Source of the DNA: Acidobacteriota bacterium
GTDB taxonomy: Bacteria; Acidobacteriota; Vicinamibacteria; Vicinamibacterales; CAVVIG01
Direction of reading: 5' to 3'
Assembly (NCBI GenBank): GCA_028876655.1
Contig: JAGWRA010000026.1
Location: 1-41,879 of the forward strand
DNA: 41,879 bases
The notes beneath the pieces are model-generated. The model was not told where the DNA came from and made no database searches. It was given only the letters and a program-made list of their open reading frames with translations. This document shows positions 6,752 to 37,643 of this stretch, piece by piece. The position numbers and the translations under genes are program-made. Numbering within the stretch: the first letter of the stretch is position 1; the number at the start of each line of letters is the position of its first letter.

Positions 6752-9700
6752 ATGACCGCACAACTCAAGAAGGCCGCGCTGGTCCTGGTGGCCGTCCTGG
6801 CGCTGACGGGCATGTTCAGCAGCCGGGCGTACGCCACCCACTTCCGCTACAGCACCATCTCGTGGTCGGCGAGCCCGACCAACACCCACCAGGTGACGTT
6901 CCAGATTCAGTCGGCCTGGCGGTGGGACTTCCCGTGGCAGATCTCGCATCCGCAGGTCGGCCAGACGTTCAACTCCGGCTACGTCTTCTATTTCGGGGAC
7001 GGGAGCTATGGTCAGATGAACCTGACCGTCACTGCGGTCGATGCGGCCAACGACTGGATGGTGGCGACGACGACGCTGACGCACACCTATGCGGGCAACG
7101 GTCCCTACATGGCGTATTTCGAGAACTGCTGCCGCCTGTCGACGCTGCTCGACAACAACCACGACCTCAACTTCATCCTGGATACGAGGGTCGTGCTGAG
7201 TAATACGCAGCCGAACCAGTCGCCGACGGTTGCGAGCGTGCCAATCATCGTGATGCCGGCGGGCGTGACGACGAGCTTCCAGATTCCGGCGAGCGATCCC
7301 GACGGGACGATTGCGTCCTACGCCCTCTCGACCACGGTGCAGTCGGGGCTAGACACGCCCTCGCCGCTGGGATTGAAGCTCACACCGTCTGGCCTGGTGA
7401 CCTGGACGCCGGCGACGTTCCAGGAAGGGCTGCATGCGATCCAGTTCACGATCACGGACAACGACGGGAACACCGTGCCGCTCGACGTGCTCCTGAACGT
7501 CATTCCTTATGCCGGTGGCACGCCGCCGACGGTGCTGATCAACAGCTCGAGCAGCCCGGTGACCGTGAACGCGCAGGCGGGCGTGCCGCTCAGCGTCGCG
7601 TTGGGCGCGACCGATCCGGACCTCGACCCGGCGACGGGACTGCCGAATACCCTGGTGACGATGGGCTCGGGCGGCCTGCCGGTGGGTGCCACGGTGACGC
7701 CGACGATGCCGTTCACGCAGCGGGTGCCGGAGACGGCGACGTTCACCTGGACGCCGACCCTGGCGCAGGCGGCGCAGACCTACACGGTCGTCTTCTCGGC
7801 GACCGACAACACCGGGCTGCAGTCGACCAACTCGCTGACGATCCACGTGGCGAGCCCGCAGCCGCCGACGGCGACCTGTTCGCCGGCGACCTACGCGGTG
7901 CAGCCGACCTCCGCGGCCGGTGCCGACGTCACGATGTCGGCCGCCGTGCAGGATCCGAACAAGCTGCCGCTGACGGTCACCTGGACCGCTGACGGCGCGG
8001 CGACCCCCGCGCAGACCGACAACGTGGCCGGCGGGACGACCGGTCCGACCACGCTGACCTCGACGCAGACCTTTGCGGTTGGCAGCCACTCGGTGGTGGT
8101 GGCGGCGACGAATACCTTCTTCTCGACCGGCACGTGCACCATCGGCGTGACGGTGGCGAAGGCGGACCAGACGATCACCTTCCCGGAGGTCGGGCCACAG
8201 ACCTACGGCGGCGCGCCGATCGTGCTGGGGGCGACCGCTTCGTCCGGTCTGCCGGTGACCTACACGCTGCTCTCGGGGCCGGCGACGCTCAGCGGCAACA
8301 CGCTGACGATCACGGGTGCCGGAGCGATCATGGTGATCGCCTCGCAGGCGGGTGACGCCACCTTCAACCCGGCGGCCGATGTCCCGCAGGAGATTGTCGT
8401 CGGGTTGGCGACGCCGGTGGTGTCGGTGACGGGCGGGACCTTCACCTACGACGGGACGCCGCACGCCGCCACGGTGACGGCCACCGGCGTGGGCGGCGCG
8501 CCCCTCGCGCCGGTGACGGTGACCTACAACGGGTCGGCGGCGGTGCCGGTCGACGCGGGAACCTACACCGTGCAGGCCAGCTACGCCGGCGGCGCGAACT
8601 ACGCGCCCGCCAGCGGCTCGGCGACGGTCACGATCAACAAGGCGACGCCGGCGGTCACGGTGACCGGCGGCACCTTCACCTACGACGGGACGCCGCACGC
8701 GGCCACCGTCTCGGTGACCGGCGTGGGCGGCGCGGCCCTCTCGCCGGTGACGGTCACCTACAACGGCGCGCCCGACGTGCCGGTGCACGGCGGGAGCTAC
8801 GCGGTCGCCGCGTCGTTCGCCGGTGACGCCAACTACCTGCCGGCCAGCGGCACGGCCTCGATCTCCATCACCCGGGCGTTGCCGGCGATGGTGGTCAAGG
8901 CCGGGACGTTCACCTACGACGGCACGCCGCACGCGGCGACCGTGTCGGTGACCGGCGTGGGCGGCGTGGCGCTCGGCCCGGCCACGGTCCTCTACAACGG
9001 ATCGCCCTCGGTGCCGACGAGTGCCGGCAGCTACCCGGTGCAGGCCCACTACGCGGGGACGACGGACTACGATCCGGTCGACGGCACGGGGACGCTCGTG
9101 ATCAACCCGGCGTCGCTGACCATCGCGGCCAACAGCACGTCGATGTCCTACGGCGGCGTGGTGCCGGCGCTCGGCGTGACCTACACGGGCTTCGTGGGCG
9201 GCGATTCGCCGGCGAGCCTCGCCACGCCGGTGACGATCTCGACGACGGCGACGCCGACGAGCCCGGTGGGGACCTACCCGATCGTGGTGGGCGGCGCGAC
9301 GTCGCCGAACTACACGATCGCGTTCGTCAACGGCGTGCTGACGGTGAACCCGGGCCAGCTGACGATTACCGCCGACAACCAGACCAAGTGGGTGGGGGCG
9401 GACGTCCCGGCGCTGACGGTCACCTACGCCGGCTTCGTCAACGGCGACACGGCGGCGAGCCTGACGACGCCGGTGACGGTCACCACGACGGCCACGAAGC
9501 TGAGCCCGTCGGGGACCTACCCGATCGTGGTCTCGGGCGCGACCGACCCGAACTACACCATCGTGTTCGCCAACGGGACGTTGACGGTGGTGGGGCTGCA
9601 GCAGGTGAAGCAGACGGCGCGCGCGGCGATCGCGGCGCTGAAGCCGACCGGCAGCCGCCAGATGGATCATGAGATCGACGAGGCGCTGCGGGAAATCGAC

Positions 9701-10156
9701 GACAGCCTGAACCCGAAGCTGTGGGCGGACGACTCGCACCTGACGGCGAAGGGGCAGCAGGTGTTCGAGGAGGAGCGCGAGGCGGTCTCGGAGCTGACCG
9801 AGCACGAGATCCAGCGGCGGGCGCCAGCGGCGCTGGTGACCGCGCTGGCGGCGCAGGCCGACGTCCTGGTGAAGGTGGACCGGGCGCTGGCGCAGTTGAC
9901 GCTGGACGAGGCGACGGCAGCCGGGATCAACGCACAGTGGCTGGCCGACCCGACGCGGGACCTCGCACAGGGCGACGCGCAGGCGACGAAGCCGGGCGGC
10001 GGCGACGAGGCGATCCAGCACTACCGCGACGCCTGGCAGGACGTCCAGCAGGCGGTCCGGCGGGCGACGCACGATCAGGATCACGACGGCGATCACGACG
10101 GCGGTCCCGGCCACGGCGGCGACCACGGTGGTGACCACGGGCACGGCCGCGACTAG
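6752..10156 (+). CDS. Large exported MBG/Ig-like repeat protein with Asp/His-rich tail
   Basis: The 1134-residue protein has a signal peptide (1-27, ending SRAYA). Its N-terminal domain (about 28-150) begins THFRYSTISW, contains FYFGDGSYG and has a PKD-like flavour. Several Ig/cadherin-like domains follow (about 155-470), among them ASDPDGTIASYAL and ATDPDLDP. A TYGGAP-type module follows at about 472-553. Three near-identical repeats with an exact 234-bp (78-residue) period then carry FTYDGTPHAATV (nt 8441, 8675, 8909), followed by two with an 81-residue period starting LTIAANSTS and LTITADNQT (nt 9116, 9359). These match MBG-type beta-grasp/Ig repeats of bacterial surface proteins. After about residue 948 the chain becomes helical, and it ends in a roughly 25-residue Asp/His/Gly tail. 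No LPXTG motif or PEP-CTERM is seen. A surface adhesin or matrix role is likely. SD AGGGAG precedes the ATG. Confidence 0.88.
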   Translation: MTAQLKKAALVLVAVLALTGMFSSRAYATHFRYSTISWSASPTNTHQVTFQIQSAWRWDFPWQISHPQVGQTFNSGYVFYFGDGSYGQMNLTVTAVDAANDWMVATTTLTHTYAGNGPYMAYFENCCRLSTLLDNNHDLNFILDTRVVLSNTQPNQSPTVASVPIIVMPAGVTTSFQIPASDPDGTIASYALSTTVQSGLDTPSPLGLKLTPSGLVTWTPATFQEGLHAIQFTITDNDGNTVPLDVLLNVIPYAGGTPPTVLINSSSSPVTVNAQAGVPLSVALGATDPDLDPATGLPNTLVTMGSGGLPVGATVTPTMPFTQRVPETATFTWTPTLAQAAQTYTVVFSATDNTGLQSTNSLTIHVASPQPPTATCSPATYAVQPTSAAGADVTMSAAVQDPNKLPLTVTWTADGAATPAQTDNVAGGTTGPTTLTSTQTFAVGSHSVVVAATNTFFSTGTCTIGVTVAKADQTITFPEVGPQTYGGAPIVLGATASSGLPVTYTLLSGPATLSGNTLTITGAGAIMVIASQAGDATFNPAADVPQEIVVGLATPVVSVTGGTFTYDGTPHAATVTATGVGGAPLAPVTVTYNGSAAVPVDAGTYTVQASYAGGANYAPASGSATVTINKATPAVTVTGGTFTYDGTPHAATVSVTGVGGAALSPVTVTYNGAPDVPVHGGSYAVAASFAGDANYLPASGTASISITRALPAMVVKAGTFTYDGTPHAATVSVTGVGGVALGPATVLYNGSPSVPTSAGSYPVQAHYAGTTDYDPVDGTGTLVINPASLTIAANSTSMSYGGVVPALGVTYTGFVGGDSPASLATPVTISTTATPTSPVGTYPIVVGGATSPNYTIAFVNGVLTVNPGQLTITADNQTKWVGADVPALTVTYAGFVNGDTAASLTTPVTVTTTATKLSPSGTYPIVVSGATDPNYTIVFANGTLTVVGLQQVKQTARAAIAALKPTGSRQMDHEIDEALREIDDSLNPKLWADDSHLTAKGQQVFEEEREAVSELTEHEIQRRAPAALVTALAAQADVLVKVDRALAQLTLDEATAAGINAQWLADPTRDLAQGDAQATKPGGGDEAIQHYRDAWQDVQQAVRRATHDQDHDGDHDGGPGHGGDHGGDHGHGRD
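8418..9119 (+). repeat. Three tandem 234-bp in-gene repeats (MBG-like modules)
   Basis: The anchor TTCACCTACGACGG recurs at 8441, 8675 and 8909, exactly 234 bp apart, with strong nucleotide similarity in the first 60 bp of each unit. Being in frame, the repeats can expand or contract by recombination without breaking the gene. Two more related 243-bp units follow at 9116 and 9359. Confidence 0.85.
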
Positions 10157-16876: not shown

Positions 16877-16886
16877 TTCTGACGTG

Positions 16887-19376
16887 ATGTCCAAGACCAT
16901 CGAATCCCAATCGTTGACCGGGCTGGCGGGCCGTTTCGGCGCGTTCGTGGCCGAGCGCTTTCCGTTCGCCGTGGACGCCGCCGTCGAGGCGTTCGACGCC
17001 GCGGTCGCGCGGGCGCGCCAGAAGGGGGCCGACGCGGAGGCGATCGACGCGCTGCGGCCGCTGCTTCGCAAGGAACTGACCGCGCGGCTGGCCACGTCCG
17101 TCCCGGCCGGGCTGGCCGAGACGACGCCGGGCGTGACGGCGGAGGCGCGGCTGGCGGCGGCCCGCGAGGAGTTCGTGGAGGCGTGCGACGGCTTCCTGCG
17201 CCGCGCGTCGATTGCGGCCTCGCTGACGCCCGACGAGCGGCGGGAGATCCTGCGCGGCATGATCCTGACGCGCGCGACCGACAGCCAGCTGAAGACGTTC
17301 TTCACGGGCGGCGAGGTCCGCTACGAGGGGATTTCCTTCCAGGGGAAGGGATTCCGCTCGCTGGGCCAGGAAGCGATCTACGCGGGCGGCATCCGGCTGC
17401 GCCGGGGTCCGAAGTACCGCGGGGCCGACGGGAGCTGGCAGGGCGACGTGATCGCGCCGGTCATCCGCGACATCGGCATCGCGCTGGCGATGCGGCCCGA
17501 GCCCGAGAGCGTCCGCATGGTGCTGTCGGCGCAGATGGGCAAGGCCGGGCCGCCGCTCGACGGGCGCGACCTGCACGTGGGCGACTTCGCGTGGGGCATC
17601 CTGCCGGCGGCCGCGCCGCTGGCGGTCGGCACGGTGACGATGGCCGGCATGGCGATGGGCTTCCACCTGGACGGCTCCGGGCGCGTGGCCTTCTCGTTCA
17701 TCGGCGAGGGGGGCTCGTCGCTGGGCGAGTGGCACGAGGCGATCAACCTGTGCGCGGCGCGCCGGCTGCCGGCGGTCTTCTGCCTGCAGAACAACCAGAC
17801 GGCGCTGTCGACGCCGGTGAACGATCAGTCGGCGGTCCGCGTGTTCGCCGACAAGGCGGCGGGCTACGGCATCCCGGGCATCACCATCGACGGCACCGAC
17901 CCGGATGCGGTCGCGGCGGCGTTCACGTGGGCGGCCGAGCGGGCGCGCGCCGGTCTCGGCCCGACGCTCATCGAGCTCATCGCGATGCGGATGTGCGGGC
18001 ACGCCCACCACGACGACATGCTGTACCTCGGGCACGACCCGAAGCCGGGCTGGGAGTACCCGCCGCTCACCGAGCAGGGGTACGCCAACCGCGAGCTCTA
18101 CGAGTTCTGGCGGACGCGCGATCCGATCCCCACGTATGCCGCGAAGCTCGAGGCCGAAGGGATCATCGCGCCGGGCGACCTCGATCGGATGAAGGCGGAG
18201 GCCGATCGGATCGTCGGCGAGCAGGCGCGGGCCGTCATCGACGCGCCATGGCCGGAGCCGGCGTCGGCGGCCGTCGGGGTCTTCGCCGGCGAGGGGCCGC
18301 GGTACCGTGTGGAGGTGCTCGAGCCGGAGTGGCGGGTGGGGACGGCGCTCGGGACGCCGCTGCCGCCGCTCGATCCGGGGCCGCCGTTCGACCCGAAGGG
18401 GAACACGTTCCTCGACGCGGTGATGCGGGGCGTGGGCGACGTGCTGCGGGCCGATCCGCGCGTCTTCGTCTACGGCGAGGACGTGGGCGGCAAGTACGGC
18501 AACGCCTTCCTGCTGCTGCGGCCGCTGCTCAAGGAGTTCGGCGATCGCCTCCTGAACTCGACGCTGGCCGAGGGCGGCGTGCTGGGCGTCTGCGTCGGCG
18601 CGGCGCTGGCCGGCCGCCGGCCGATCGGCGAGATGCAGTTCAACGACTTCGTCGCGACCGGCTTCAACCAGCTGGTGAACAACGCGGCGAAGATCCGCTA
18701 CCGCTGGGGCGGCAGCGTGCCGATGGTCGTCCGGATGCCCTGGGGCGGCCTGCGCCACGCCGGGCCGTACCACAGCCAGAATACCGAGCCCTGGTTCTAC
18801 CGGACCCCCGGGCTGAAGATCGTGGTGCCGTCGACGCCGTACGACGCGCGGGCGCTGATGGCCGCGGCGGTCGCCGATCCGGACCCGGTGCTCTACTACG
18901 AGCACATCACGCTCTACCGCGAGCCCCGGATCAAGCAGGTGCTGGCCGAGGCGGCGCCCGAGCCGCTGCCGATCGGCAAGGCGGCGCTGCGGCGGGCCGG
19001 CGACGACCTGGCGATCATCTCCTACGGCGCCTACGTGCACGTCGCGATGCGGGCGGCGGCGGCGCTGGCCGCCGACGGCATCGAGGCGAGCGTGCTGGAC
19101 CTCCGGTCGCTCGTGCCGCTCGACAAGGAGGCCGTCCTCGCCGTGGTCCGGCACTGCAACCGGGTGCTGATCGTCCACGAGGACTCGCGGACCGGGGGCA
19201 TCGGCGAGAGCCTGGCGGCCATCATCCAGGAGGAGGCGTTCGAGTCGCTCGACGCCCCGATCCGGATCATCGGCGGCCTCGATACGCCCGTGCCCTACTC
19301 GCCGCCGCTCGAGGAGTTCTTCCTGCCGCACGAGGCGGACGTCGAGCGCGCGGCACGGTTGCTGATGCAGTACTGA
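16887..19376 (+). CDS. 2-oxoacid dehydrogenase E1, alpha and beta fused
   Basis: The 829-residue protein joins both E1 halves. An N-terminal extension of about 160 residues is followed by the alpha part, with FRSLGQEAIYAGG and a TPP-binding motif GEG at 273-275 running to QNN near 303; GEG replaces the usual GDG. The loop that is GHSTSDD in regulated enzymes reads GHAHHDD here. The beta part starts near 500, with VYGEDVGGKYGN, STLAEGGVLG, EMQFNDF and RMPWGG, and closes with SVLDLRSLVPLD and IVHEDSRTGGIGE. It decarboxylates a 2-oxo acid (branched-chain type most likely) and acylates a lipoyl E2 partner. No E2 or E3 gene is in view. Start: ATG 16887 or the adjacent in-frame GTG 16884. Confidence 0.9.
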   Translation: MSKTIESQSLTGLAGRFGAFVAERFPFAVDAAVEAFDAAVARARQKGADAEAIDALRPLLRKELTARLATSVPAGLAETTPGVTAEARLAAAREEFVEACDGFLRRASIAASLTPDERREILRGMILTRATDSQLKTFFTGGEVRYEGISFQGKGFRSLGQEAIYAGGIRLRRGPKYRGADGSWQGDVIAPVIRDIGIALAMRPEPESVRMVLSAQMGKAGPPLDGRDLHVGDFAWGILPAAAPLAVGTVTMAGMAMGFHLDGSGRVAFSFIGEGGSSLGEWHEAINLCAARRLPAVFCLQNNQTALSTPVNDQSAVRVFADKAAGYGIPGITIDGTDPDAVAAAFTWAAERARAGLGPTLIELIAMRMCGHAHHDDMLYLGHDPKPGWEYPPLTEQGYANRELYEFWRTRDPIPTYAAKLEAEGIIAPGDLDRMKAEADRIVGEQARAVIDAPWPEPASAAVGVFAGEGPRYRVEVLEPEWRVGTALGTPLPPLDPGPPFDPKGNTFLDAVMRGVGDVLRADPRVFVYGEDVGGKYGNAFLLLRPLLKEFGDRLLNSTLAEGGVLGVCVGAALAGRRPIGEMQFNDFVATGFNQLVNNAAKIRYRWGGSVPMVVRMPWGGLRHAGPYHSQNTEPWFYRTPGLKIVVPSTPYDARALMAAAVADPDPVLYYEHITLYREPRIKQVLAEAAPEPLPIGKAALRRAGDDLAIISYGAYVHVAMRAAAALAADGIEASVLDLRSLVPLDKEAVLAVVRHCNRVLIVHEDSRTGGIGESLAAIIQEEAFESLDAPIRIIGGLDTPVPYSPPLEEFFLPHEADVERAARLLMQY

Positions 19377-19385
19377 CGATGAGCG

Positions 19386-19493
19386 GCAATGGGCAATGCG
19401 CAATGGGCAATGAGTGACGAGCGATGAGTGATCCGGGAGGTGCGGTTCTGAACAATACCCATTGCGCATTGCCCATCGCGCATTGCCTGCACC
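19386..19493. repeat. Facing GCAAYGN heptad arrays (inverted pair)
   Basis: Left array, plus sense: GCAATGG, GCAATGC, GCAATGG, GCAATGA, then drifting GTGACGA, GCGATGA, GTGATCC (19386-19434). Right array, inverse sense: CCATTGC, GCATTGC, CCATCGC, GCATTGC, CTGCACC (19459-19493). About 25 bp lie between them, so the two arms can pair as a long hairpin. The unit length is a strict seven. The element begins 10 bp after the E1 stop and ends shortly before the MFS start, so it could affect read-through between them. Confidence 0.85.
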
Positions 19494-19521
19494 TGGTCCC
19501 CTGCCTCAGCCCTCTTCTGCC

Positions 19522-20775
19522 GTGACCTCATCGGGCGCTCCGTCCACGTCCTCCTTCGTCCTCGCCCGCCGGGCCGCGTACTACGGGCTGGCGGTCATCA
19601 CGCTGCTCAACTTCGTCAACTACATCGACCGCTACATCCTGTCGGCGGTGATGCCGCGCATCAAGAGCGACCTCGGCATCAACGATTTCGAGCTCGGGCT
19701 CCTCACCAACGGGTTCCTCGTCAGTTACTTCCTCACCTCGCCGTTCTTCGGCCGGCTGGGCGACCGGCTGTCGCGGACGAAGCTGATCTCGGCGGGGGTC
19801 GCGGCCTGGAGCGTCGCCACGGCCGCGTCGGGGCTGGCCGCGACCTTCCCGCAGCTGTTCGCGGCGCGCGCCACGGTCGGCGTCGGCGAGGCGGCCTACG
19901 CGACGATCTCGCCGTCGCTGCTCTCCGACTACTTCCCGAAGGCGCAGCGCGGCCGCGCGTTCGCGACCTTCTACGTCGCGCTGCCGGTCGGCGCGGCGTT
20001 CGGCTTCCTGCTCGGCGGCGCGCTGGAGCACGCCTACGGCTGGCGGGCGGCGTTCTACGCGGTCGGGCTGCCGGGGATCGCGCTCGCGCTGCTCACGCTG
20101 ACGATCGCCGAGCCGCCGCGCGGCATCCAGGACGACGAGCCGGTGCCCGTGCTGGACGAGTCGATCTGGCAGAGCCTGCGGACGCTCATCCGGATCCCCG
20201 ACTACCTCTGGACCGTCGTCGGCTACGCCGCGTACACCTTCGGCGTGGGCGGCCTGGCGATCTGGATGCCGACCTACCTGGCGCGCGTGCGCGGTCTCGA
20301 GCTGCGCGATGCCGACTTCCTGGTGGGCGGGGTGACCGTGGTCGCCGGACTGGCGGGGACGTTCCTCGGCGGGTTCCTCGGGGACCGGCTGCTGCGCTGG
20401 ACCGATCGCGCGTACCTGTGGCTGTCGGGCATCGCCGCGCTGCTCGGCATCGTGCCGACCTGGATCGCCCTCACGGGCGGCTCCGAGCCGGTCTACATCG
20501 GCGGCTTCTTCGTGGCCGAGTTCCTGCTCTTCCTCAGCACCGGGCCGATCAACGTCGTCATCGTCTCGGCCGTGCCGGTGGCGATGCGCGCCACGGCGAT
20601 GGCGGTCAGCATCTTCGCCATCCACCTGTTCGGCGACGCCATCTCCCCGCCGATCATCGGCGCGATTGCCGATCGGGTCGGCCTGGCCAAGGCGGTGCTG
20701 ATCGTGCCGGTGGCGGTGGCGATCTGCGGAGTCGTCTGGACGGGGATTGCCGCGCGCAAGGCGCGGCAGCCCTGA
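19522..20775 (+). CDS. MFS transporter, spinster-like
   Basis: The 417-residue protein (from GTG 19522) has 12 predicted helices and the MFS signature between helices 2 and 3 (FGRLGDRLSRTKLI). FVNYIDRYILSAVMPRIKSDLGI in helix 1 (quoted in part: NYIDRYILS) is typical of the spinster-like branch, which exports or imports lipids, sugars or organic acids. Substrate is unknown. The start is uncertain: GTG 19522 has a weak ribosome-binding site. A TTG at 19462 in the same frame falls inside the heptad array and is less likely. It is the first gene of a tight three-gene run (11 bp to the next, then an overlap). Confidence 0.88.
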   Translation: MTSSGAPSTSSFVLARRAAYYGLAVITLLNFVNYIDRYILSAVMPRIKSDLGINDFELGLLTNGFLVSYFLTSPFFGRLGDRLSRTKLISAGVAAWSVATAASGLAATFPQLFAARATVGVGEAAYATISPSLLSDYFPKAQRGRAFATFYVALPVGAAFGFLLGGALEHAYGWRAAFYAVGLPGIALALLTLTIAEPPRGIQDDEPVPVLDESIWQSLRTLIRIPDYLWTVVGYAAYTFGVGGLAIWMPTYLARVRGLELRDADFLVGGVTVVAGLAGTFLGGFLGDRLLRWTDRAYLWLSGIAALLGIVPTWIALTGGSEPVYIGGFFVAEFLLFLSTGPINVVIVSAVPVAMRATAMAVSIFAIHLFGDAISPPIIGAIADRVGLAKAVLIVPVAVAICGVVWTGIAARKARQP

Positions 20776-36982: not shown

Positions 36983-37010
36983 GCAACGGGCAACGAGCAA
37001 TGGGCAATGG
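36983..37010 (+). repeat. GCAAYGR heptad array, plus sense
   Basis: Four perfect 7-nt units: GCAACGG, GCAACGA, GCAATGG, GCAATGG. It starts 16 bp after the O-methyltransferase stop and directly precedes the hairpin at 37013. The same unit, in inverted sense, is found at 37580-37607 on the far side of MaoC and in both senses at 19386-19486. Confidence 0.85.
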
Positions 37011-37057: not shown

Positions 37058-37486
37058 TTACCGGCCGAGCGGCATCGTGTAGCAGACGGCGGTACCTTCC
37101 AGGGCGACGGTCCCGTCGTCGCGCACGACCCGGGTCGTCAGCTCCGTGATCGGCTTGTCGGCGCGCACCTTCGTCACCTCGACTTCGCCCGTGATCGTGT
37201 CGCCCGGCCGCACCGGCGCCTTGAAGCTCCAGTTCACCTGGAGGAACACGGTGCCGGGGCCGGGCAGATCTTCGGCGACGACGGCGTTCAGAATTGCGCT
37301 CGTGATGCCGCCCTGGACGACGATGCCGCCGAAGCGGGTGGCGCGGGCGAGCGCTTCGTCGTAGTGGAGCGGATTGCGATCGCCGCTGATCGCGGTGAAC
37401 CGCTCGATGTCCCCCGCTTCGACCAGGCGCGACCGGCTCGCGCGCTGTCCGACCGCCGGCATCCCCTTCGGCCACACGTCAGTCAC
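37058..37486 (-). CDS. MaoC-like hot-dog-fold dehydratase
   Basis: With GTG 37486 as start, the protein has 142 residues. It has the hydratase-2 signature SGDRNPLHYDEALAR, with catalytic Asp36 and His41. FGGIVVQGGITSAIL, LQVNWSFKAPVRPGDTITGEVEV and the closing strands are typical of single-domain MaoC/PhaJ-type (R)-specific enoyl-CoA hydratases. It would hydrate trans-2-enoyl-CoA to (R)-3-hydroxyacyl-CoA in the cytoplasm; the chain length is unknown. Another GTG (37477) and an ATG-led start near residue 9 are possible. A heptad array touches the chosen start codon, and GGAGAC within it could serve as a weak ribosome-binding site. Gene order suggests read-through from DUF1697. Confidence 0.88.
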   Translation of the reverse strand: MTDVWPKGMPAVGQRASRSRLVEAGDIERFTAISGDRNPLHYDEALARATRFGGIVVQGGITSAILNAVVAEDLPGPGTVFLQVNWSFKAPVRPGDTITGEVEVTKVRADKPITELTTRVVRDDGTVALEGTAVCYTMPLGR

Positions 37487-37549
37487 GGTCTGCAGTCTCC
37501 AGTCTTCGGTCTTCAGTCTTCGGTCTACGGTGCACAGGCTGCGGGCTAC
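37487..37549. repeat. RGTCTNC heptad array abutting the MaoC start codon
   Basis: Units of seven from 37487: GGTCTGC, AGTCTCC, AGTCTTC, GGTCTTC, AGTCTTC, GGTCTAC, then drifting GGTGCAC, AGGCTGC, GGGCTAC. The first base of the array is next to the GTG of MaoC (minus strand). In MaoC mRNA the units read GAAGACY/GGAGACT. Confidence 0.85.
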
Positions 37550-37579: not shown

Positions 37580-37607
37580 CCGTTGCCCGTTGCTCATTGC
37601 CCATTGC
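37580..37607 (-). repeat. GCAAYGR heptad array, minus sense
   Basis: Units on the plus strand are CCGTTGC, CCGTTGC, TCATTGC, CCATTGC; on the minus strand GCAATGG, GCAATGA, GCAACGG, GCAACGG. It is the inverted partner of 36983-37010, and the MaoC gene lies between them. Confidence 0.85.
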
Positions 37608-37615
37608 GACATCGT

Positions 37616-37643
37616 CCCGAGCCCCGAGCCCCGAGCCCCGAGT
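37616..37643. repeat. CCCGAGC heptad array abutting the DUF1697 stop codon
   Basis: Units CCCGAGC, CCCGAGC, CCCGAGC, CCCGAGT, in strict 7-nt steps. The last base is shared with the minus-strand stop codon at 37643-37645. It is related in sequence to the array at 493-513 (GCCCGGA, GCCCGTA, GCCCGAG), which also touches a stop codon. Confidence 0.85.

Follow-up and report, generated by a model that had tools for sequence, protein, structure and literature searches.

The window analysed here, a stretch of 41,879 nucleotides, belongs to the genome of an acidobacterium (G000; 4.19 Mb in 281 contigs) and holds, between two genes of the same orientation, a pair of short arrays of seven-base units that face each other. 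What such a structure is, how it arises and why its unit counts seven bases are the questions raised by this locus. The features of the window are listed below.

468-523, no strand: degenerate CCGTAGC-like array (GGCTNCG family in minus-strand reading)
16884-19376, plus strand: upstream neighbour, gene with E1_dh and transketolase domains
19386-19413, plus strand: left array, four heptads GCAATGG GCAATGC GCAATGG GCAATGA
19414-19458, no strand: interior of 45 bp, gene-free
19453-19458, minus strand: CAATAC, the right array's inner end GTATTG, a variant fifth heptad of many family copies
19459-19486, minus strand: right array, inverted CCATTGC GCATTGC CCATCGC GCATTGC (GCRATGN on the minus strand)
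19522-20775, plus strand: downstream neighbour, MFS transporter gene, start approximate
36983-37010, plus strand: GCAAYGN array, no near partner
37488-37531, plus strand: array of a different heptad family, GTCTNCR
37580-37607, minus strand: GCAAYGN-family array, read on the minus strand
37616-37642, no strand: array of a different heptad, CCCGAGC

The window element and its repeat family

The facing arrays described in an earlier note on this DNA are real, they do lie between the E1 gene and the MFS gene, and their unit indeed recurs about 17 kb away, at 36983-37010 and 37580-37607. The spacing of about 25 bp given there has to be corrected, since the arms are 45 bp apart. A gap of 9 bp separates the E1 stop codon from the left array, whose inner end reads AGTGACG in place of the usual GGTATTG. 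The two distant GCAAYGN arrays face each other as well, about 570 bp apart, and flank a MaoC-like gene (37058-37477) together with an array of another family; they are probably independent single arrays. In addition, the window contains a 234-bp tandem repeat of 2.6-2.8 copies (8407-9089) within an open reading frame of 1134 amino acids (6752-10156).

Across the whole genome, GCAATGNGCAATG occurs at 84 places as opposed to none for the reversed pattern, GGCTNCGGGCTNCG at 165 as opposed to 12, and TSAGTTNTSAGTTN at 129 as opposed to 13. The preference for a period of seven was assessed in a sample of 61 stretches (776,366 bases, GC 69.6%), the genes of which were called by a simple script that missed at least one gene discussed below, the IVP gene of contig C18. 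Intergenic runs of at least nine at lag 7 numbered 51 in this sample, compared with 0.2 in shuffles; the multiples 14 and 21 yielded 44 and 29 intergenic runs, and each of the remaining lags from 3 to 20 yielded 0-8. A tolerant search returned 77 arrays at period 7, 70 of them intergenic and 7 coding, and 9 intergenic arrays at periods 5, 6, 8, 9, 10 and 11 combined. A chance origin of the arrays is excluded. The comparison with shuffled sequence confirms the enrichment of heptads, their siting is largely intergenic, and the proposal of a genome-wide family instead of local slippage is borne out. Sorted by eye, the heptad families of G000 include GCAAYGN, GGCTNCG, GTCTNCR, TSAGTTN (with TAACTGA), GGGATTN and CGTACGN.

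The anatomy of the GCAAYGN family was derived from 77 arrays, 44 of which consist of exactly four units, while the others comprise two (11 arrays), three (8), five (9), six (1), seven (2), eight (1) or nine units (1). After exclusion of the two-unit arrays, 66 arrays with at least three units remained for analysis of the inner end, where the next base is G in 98%, followed by T in 91%, with G at position 6 in 92%. The inner end GTNTTG is present in 38 of these 66 arrays and takes the form GTATTG in 30 of the 38. These base counts indicate that an array is composed of four canonical heptads and a variant fifth, and a full reading of the intergenic regions likewise found GCAAYG arrays to end inward in GGTATTG. 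Gene-less pairs have the inner ends GGTATTG/CAATACC in common. As side observations, the last base of GCRAYGN units is T in just 3 of 282 cases, and a weak preference for GTC is seen directly outside the arrays.

Heptad arrays on both sides of IVP genes

A facing GCAAYG pair on contig C18 of the same genome (6334-6808) encloses a small open reading frame, whose product matches PF05635 and TIGR02436 (E 9.6e-31 and 2.3e-29), i.e., the 23S rRNA-intervening-sequence or four-helix-bundle protein (23S_rRNA_IVP, S23), referred to as IVP below. The whole genome holds PF05635 matches on contigs C18, C182, C245 and C270 only, and the window copy is devoid of such a gene. All four IVP genes are located between facing heptad arrays, each with a different unit: GCAAYGN, the unit of the window element, at C18, TGAGTTN at C182 and GGCTNCG at C270, all three recovered by the automatic test, and about RGGCGRT at C245, recognised by eye below the automatic threshold. 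Thus, units differ from gene to gene yet match between the two arms. The inner ends of the gene-less pairs are only partly retained in the IVP-bearing C18 copy, the right inner end of which is different. Moreover, some heptad families for which G000 has no IVP gene of its own are paired with one elsewhere: GGGATTN arrays bracket IVP genes in the relatives G088 and G215, and GGACGTN units adjoin the IVP gene of the congener G207. Among solved structures, 2GSC, which has five chains, comes closest to the C18 protein; it is described as a toroidal homopentamer, and S23/IVP proteins are said to have 'no known function' (PMC4990558).

Of 149 genomes from the phylum, 75 have a PF05635 match, as do 30 of 40 named genomes that span many phyla; the control genomes gave 0 of 14 in either case. 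Arrays with periods of 5-12 were sought within 300 bp of IVP matches at loci that represent the best-scoring match of each genome and not a random draw; 9 of these 64 loci (L231-L294) were clipped and dropped. Mirrored arrays in the phylum set (30 loci) were found 17 times at period 7, four times at period 8 and once at period 9, and in the named set (25 loci) nine times, twice and once, respectively, while periods 5, 6, 10, 11 and 12 yielded none around the IVP matches of both sets. As controls, none of 110 shifted windows within IVP loci and 3 of 545 called genes of the genome's own sample were mirrored, the C18 IVP gene not being among the called genes. The collection was extended by 22 places from hand-picked regions, 20 of which had been added; removal of two places with short flanks and one duplicate (L303 = L269) from 77 left 74 unique IVP places. 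Of these, 53 carry mirrored arrays (41 at period 7, 10 at period 8 and 2 at period 9), and for the other 21 the test detected no mirrored pair. The 5' arm is the G-rich one at 47 of the 53 mirrored places. At IVP genes, the median number of units per arm is 4.6 for period 7, 4.75 for period 8 and, from only four arms, 3.7 for period 9, and the similarity of the medians at periods 7 and 8 suggests that unit number, not length, is kept.

Plasmid-borne IVP genes are bracketed too, including those on cyanobacterial plasmids: 9 of 12 regions, fetched from 23 records with a match, are mirrored, the hosts belonging to Nostoc, Calothrix, Aulosira, Trichormus, Anabaena, Azospirillum, Stanieria, Picosynechococcus and Geminocystis. 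Individual loci show further features. Octad arrays lie at the IVP genes of L243, L249, L256, L259, L291 and L308, and nonad arrays at those of L254 and L294. In Pleurocapsa sp. CCALA 161 (L307, L310), arrays of 16-60 units adjoin IVP genes, as compared with the usual four to five. Two IVP genes reside inside CRISPR operons, one between cas10/cmr2 and a cmr3-family gene (L345, a plasmid of Picosynechococcus sp. PCC 7003) and one between cas6 and cas4 (L341, pANA02 of Anabaena sp. 90), the latter being preceded on its 5' side by ACAGGTG/ACAGGGA arrays of about 37 units. A group II intron match (2317-2394) is situated at the end of a Calothrix IVP locus (L271).

The association can also be approached from the arrays. 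In 287,525 bases from twenty genomes with at least six IVP copies, 27 arrays of period 7 and 7 of period 8 were counted, as opposed to 2 and 0 in 325,030 bases of 20 IVP-less genomes; periods 5, 6, 9, 10, 11 and 12 combined yield 11 in the former and 8 in the latter. In genome G034 the reversed pattern GTAACGN is enriched, which led to the prediction of an IVP gene between such arrays; one such gene (C223:8950-9261) is indeed positioned between GTAACG/GTGACG arrays. Among 110 named loci fetched by three GCAATGN units, four hold an IVP gene, each 51-172 bp from the array, and the remaining 106 hold none within the stretch fetched. Some genomes speak against the link. G083, a 93%-complete genome of the same genus as G034, features 24 GTAACGN pair places and no PF05635 match; its congeners G034 and G138 have eight IVP matches each. 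G202 has eight GCAATG places, and none of the five loci fetched out of its six IVP loci is flanked by GCAATG, and G207, of the same genus as G000, has one IVP gene and no GCAATG pairs. A GGGAATC pattern, sought with a view to whether such arrays of Xanthomonas bracket XCC0516, was present in 0 of the 274 genomes that share the class of G234. Similarity of units and similarity of proteins correlate only weakly (Mantel r 0.14, p 0.007), too weakly to establish a simple fixed code between protein and unit, common units occurring mainly at more than 60% protein identity, and a tight co-evolution of unit and protein across the whole set was thus discarded. In summary, heptad arrays are associated with IVP genes, about which hardly any doubt is left.

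Folding, siting and the origin of the arrays

Slippage offers the simplest account of tandem structure: heptads would grow in place, seven nucleotides would suit the polymerase, and IVP genes would merely sit there, a hypothesis that PMC4679880 and PMC4692102 credit to Mrazek 2007. The few very long arrays, with up to 40-60 units in Pleurocapsa, and the heptamer number that differs among Coxiella strains (PMC4990558) are in keeping with it. On the other hand, slippage should produce a decaying distribution of unit numbers and not a peak at four, nor does it account for a variant fifth heptad, GTATTG, that is common to dispersed copies, for the near disappearance of arrays from IVP-less genomes, for IVP genes with periods 8 and 9, or for mirrored pairs that bracket one gene family. 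We regard it as unlikely.

The arrays might instead be RNA hairpins owned by the host, i.e., signals for 3' processing, stability or termination that are kept by selection for base pairing, with IVP as a guest or regulator. Siting lends this some appeal, as 30 of the 58 arrays are no farther than 15 bp from a stop codon, compared with 14.2 expected, a value reached in none of 100 simulations, and the density of arrays per kb falls from 1.83 between convergent genes to 0.96 in tandem and to a mere 0.31 between divergent pairs. Predicted stems are strong, too: the window copy folds as RNA at -55.1 kcal/mol. Nevertheless, 10 of 200 shuffles fold equally well (z -1.8), and 3 of 200 do so for the DNA fold (z -2.4). 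Many arrays have no partner at all, and a comparison of 16 paired gene-less copies shows no greater likeness between the two arms of an element than between arms taken from separate elements, be it by identity (0.802 within and 0.825 between elements, permutation p 0.97) or by local-alignment score (0.635 and 0.701, p 0.997); the hairpin as a selected feature was rejected on these grounds. Mirrored unit order at IVP loci is likewise weak (Wilcoxon p 0.051, n=50). The long hairpin suggested by the earlier note can hence form, whereas its arms lack the covariation that base-pair selection would leave, and arms without mutual likeness favour two independent protein sites of common consensus over a stem selected for pairing. 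No intrinsic terminator (GC stem, short loop and T run) was found at 19300-19620, and no sigma-70 promoter was found at the site.

A further point against host hairpins comes from the congener G207, in which the E1 and MFS genes are also neighbours: the homologous blocks are separated by 15 bp, as opposed to 177 bp in G000, and the junction is free of arrays. The window insert is therefore lineage-specific, either gained in G000 or lost in G207. Inspection of this one junction by eye revealed no target duplication, and neither a transposase nor any movement was observed. Taken together, host-owned hairpins are a rather improbable explanation. The reverse order, in which the arrays are older and IVP genes home into them, a gene-less facing pair being the empty target and the IVP-bearing locus the occupied form, has very little probability, for although the 84 GCAATG pair matches against a single IVP gene with that unit, the 106 of 110 named loci with arrays alone and the arrays of G083 would suit it, IVP-less genomes are nearly free of arrays (2 in 325 kb) and the copy with the IVP gene preserves only part of the GGTATTG/CAATACC inner ends of gene-less pairs.

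Known systems and a putative IVP element

The protein family and the complementary ends around an S23p reading frame are shared with the intervening sequences (IVSs) of 23S rRNA genes, which with such a frame also occur in Leptospira and Brucella, and in Coxiella the 23S IVS contains tandem heptamers beside the S23 frame whose number differs by strain (PMC4990558). Complementary ends are present in the window element as well as at the 53 mirrored IVP places, and an S23/PF05635 reading frame is present in the C18 copy and absent from the window copy. The loci considered here differ in their location outside rRNA, since 0 of 60 IVP loci (L231-L290) have an Rfam rRNA match and the window, in which an Rfam scan recovered no known RNA family, has none either. 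They also differ in having arrays of many units of 7-9 bp on both sides as well as numerous gene-less copies.

Cyanobacterial STRR heptanucleotide repeats, which were reportedly described by Mazel in 1990 (cited in PMC4692102), resemble the present arrays in style, consisting of tandem 7-bp units that are dispersed and mostly intergenic. The likeness drawn by the earlier note holds to this extent and is incomplete, as GCAAYGN is one of several families per genome, which are here mostly non-cyanobacterial, arranged in facing pairs and linked to PF05635 genes. A further parallel is provided by the GGGNATC heptads of Xanthomonas and the GGGGAYT heptads of Nostoc, which share the preference for four units, the siting near stop codons with few copies between divergent genes, and convergent pairs, 70 in Xcc and 75 in Xac (PMC4692102). 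There, the repeats are explained by G-quadruplexes, with no mention of S23/IVP (PMC4692102). GCAATGN units contain no run of at least three G, as each unit of a G-quadruplex heptad would, and the mode is still four; G-quadruplexes were thus rejected as the cause of the four-unit preference. The TAACTGA heptads of Beggiatoaceae are dispersed and intergenic as well, and TAACTGA units occur inside the TSAGTTN family of G000; in contrast, they lie just upstream of start codons, are thought to be translational signals and have no described link to IVP, although a repeat-binding protein was considered as a possible mobile element, with S23 not among the candidates (PMC4679880).

The fold of PF05635 is homologous to that of Avd from diversity-generating retroelements (4DWL and 2GSC; PMC10053308). 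Reverse transcriptase matches (PF00078) are commoner in IVP-rich genomes, with 12 of 20 as compared with 3 of 20 among genomes that have no IVP (Fisher p 0.008, genome size being uncontrolled), and the eight IVP-rich genomes devoid of it indicate that a reverse transcriptase of that kind is not required; the single RVT_1 match of G000 is at C251, a contig without IVP. REP/BIME sequences and RAYT constitute a system in which a single-copy protein gene is flanked by repeats that are also dispersed over the genome in gene-less form, and the IVP gene with its dispersed gene-less repeats works alike. The two systems differ in that RAYT is a relative of transposases and each REP a single palindrome, while IVP folds as a four-helix bundle and the units flanking the PF05635 gene form tandem arrays. 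To our knowledge, IVP is neither a known transposase nor endowed with a known enzyme activity.

The bracketing of IVP genes by arrays suggests that the latter are landing sites of IVP and, at the same time, the ends of a tiny mobile element. A full IVP element would comprise a PF05635 four-helix-bundle gene of about 120 codons between two facing arrays, usually with four to five units of 7 bp, or of 8 or 9 bp in other lineages. An IVP ring may bind each array as its cognate site, and it is quite likely that the ring recognises its own units. On RNA or on a single strand of DNA, each subunit of the pentamer would contact one unit, about five units in a row being read in this way, and in the GCAAYGN family these five would be the four canonical heptads and the variant fifth GTATTGN. 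With one unit per subunit, the period of 7-9 nt would equal the spacing of binding sites on neighbouring subunits. The element is envisaged as selfish and IVS-like in its spread, and IVP would work in trans on gene-less copies, which are dispersed between genes, often right after stop codons; that IVP elements are mobile is, on balance, plausible. In transcripts, the facing arrays could pair into a stem and RNase III could cut it, as in 23S rRNA IVSs. The gene-less copies behave like MITEs inasmuch as 16 paired copies are dispersed with common inverted ends (inner end GTATTG) and a putative autonomous partner with matching ends exists in the C18 IVP gene between GCAAYGN arrays, apart from its differing right inner end. 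The window element is likely such a MITE-like copy, derived from an IVP element and devoid of its gene, its arrays being putative ring sites and IVS-like element ends.

In a broader and tentative generalisation, many intergenic heptad and octad arrays of bacteria may be the ends and remnants of a single, hitherto overlooked class of selfish elements, in which each subunit of a pentameric IVP/S23 ring reads one unit of 7-9 nt and the ring about five, with lineage-specific pairs of protein and unit and with gene-less copies spreading in trans. The preference for seven would then reflect subunit spacing, and 23S rRNA IVSs would be rare copies that landed in rRNA. The repeat family itself is already known in style, reports of an excess of heptads in bacteria going back to 2007, with no agreed cause (as cited in PMC4679880 and PMC4692102), while their association with IVP genes is new here: a search of the open-licence literature found no paper on a general link between PF05635 genes and tandem arrays, the nearest being the single Coxiella observation in PMC4990558. 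This link offers a candidate partner for both the unexplained heptads and the S23/IVP proteins; it leads one to expect an array at most IVP genes and makes 'why seven?' a question of binding. If right, it would add a system of protein and repeats akin to REP-RAYT, as well as a source of intergenic insertions right after stop codons.
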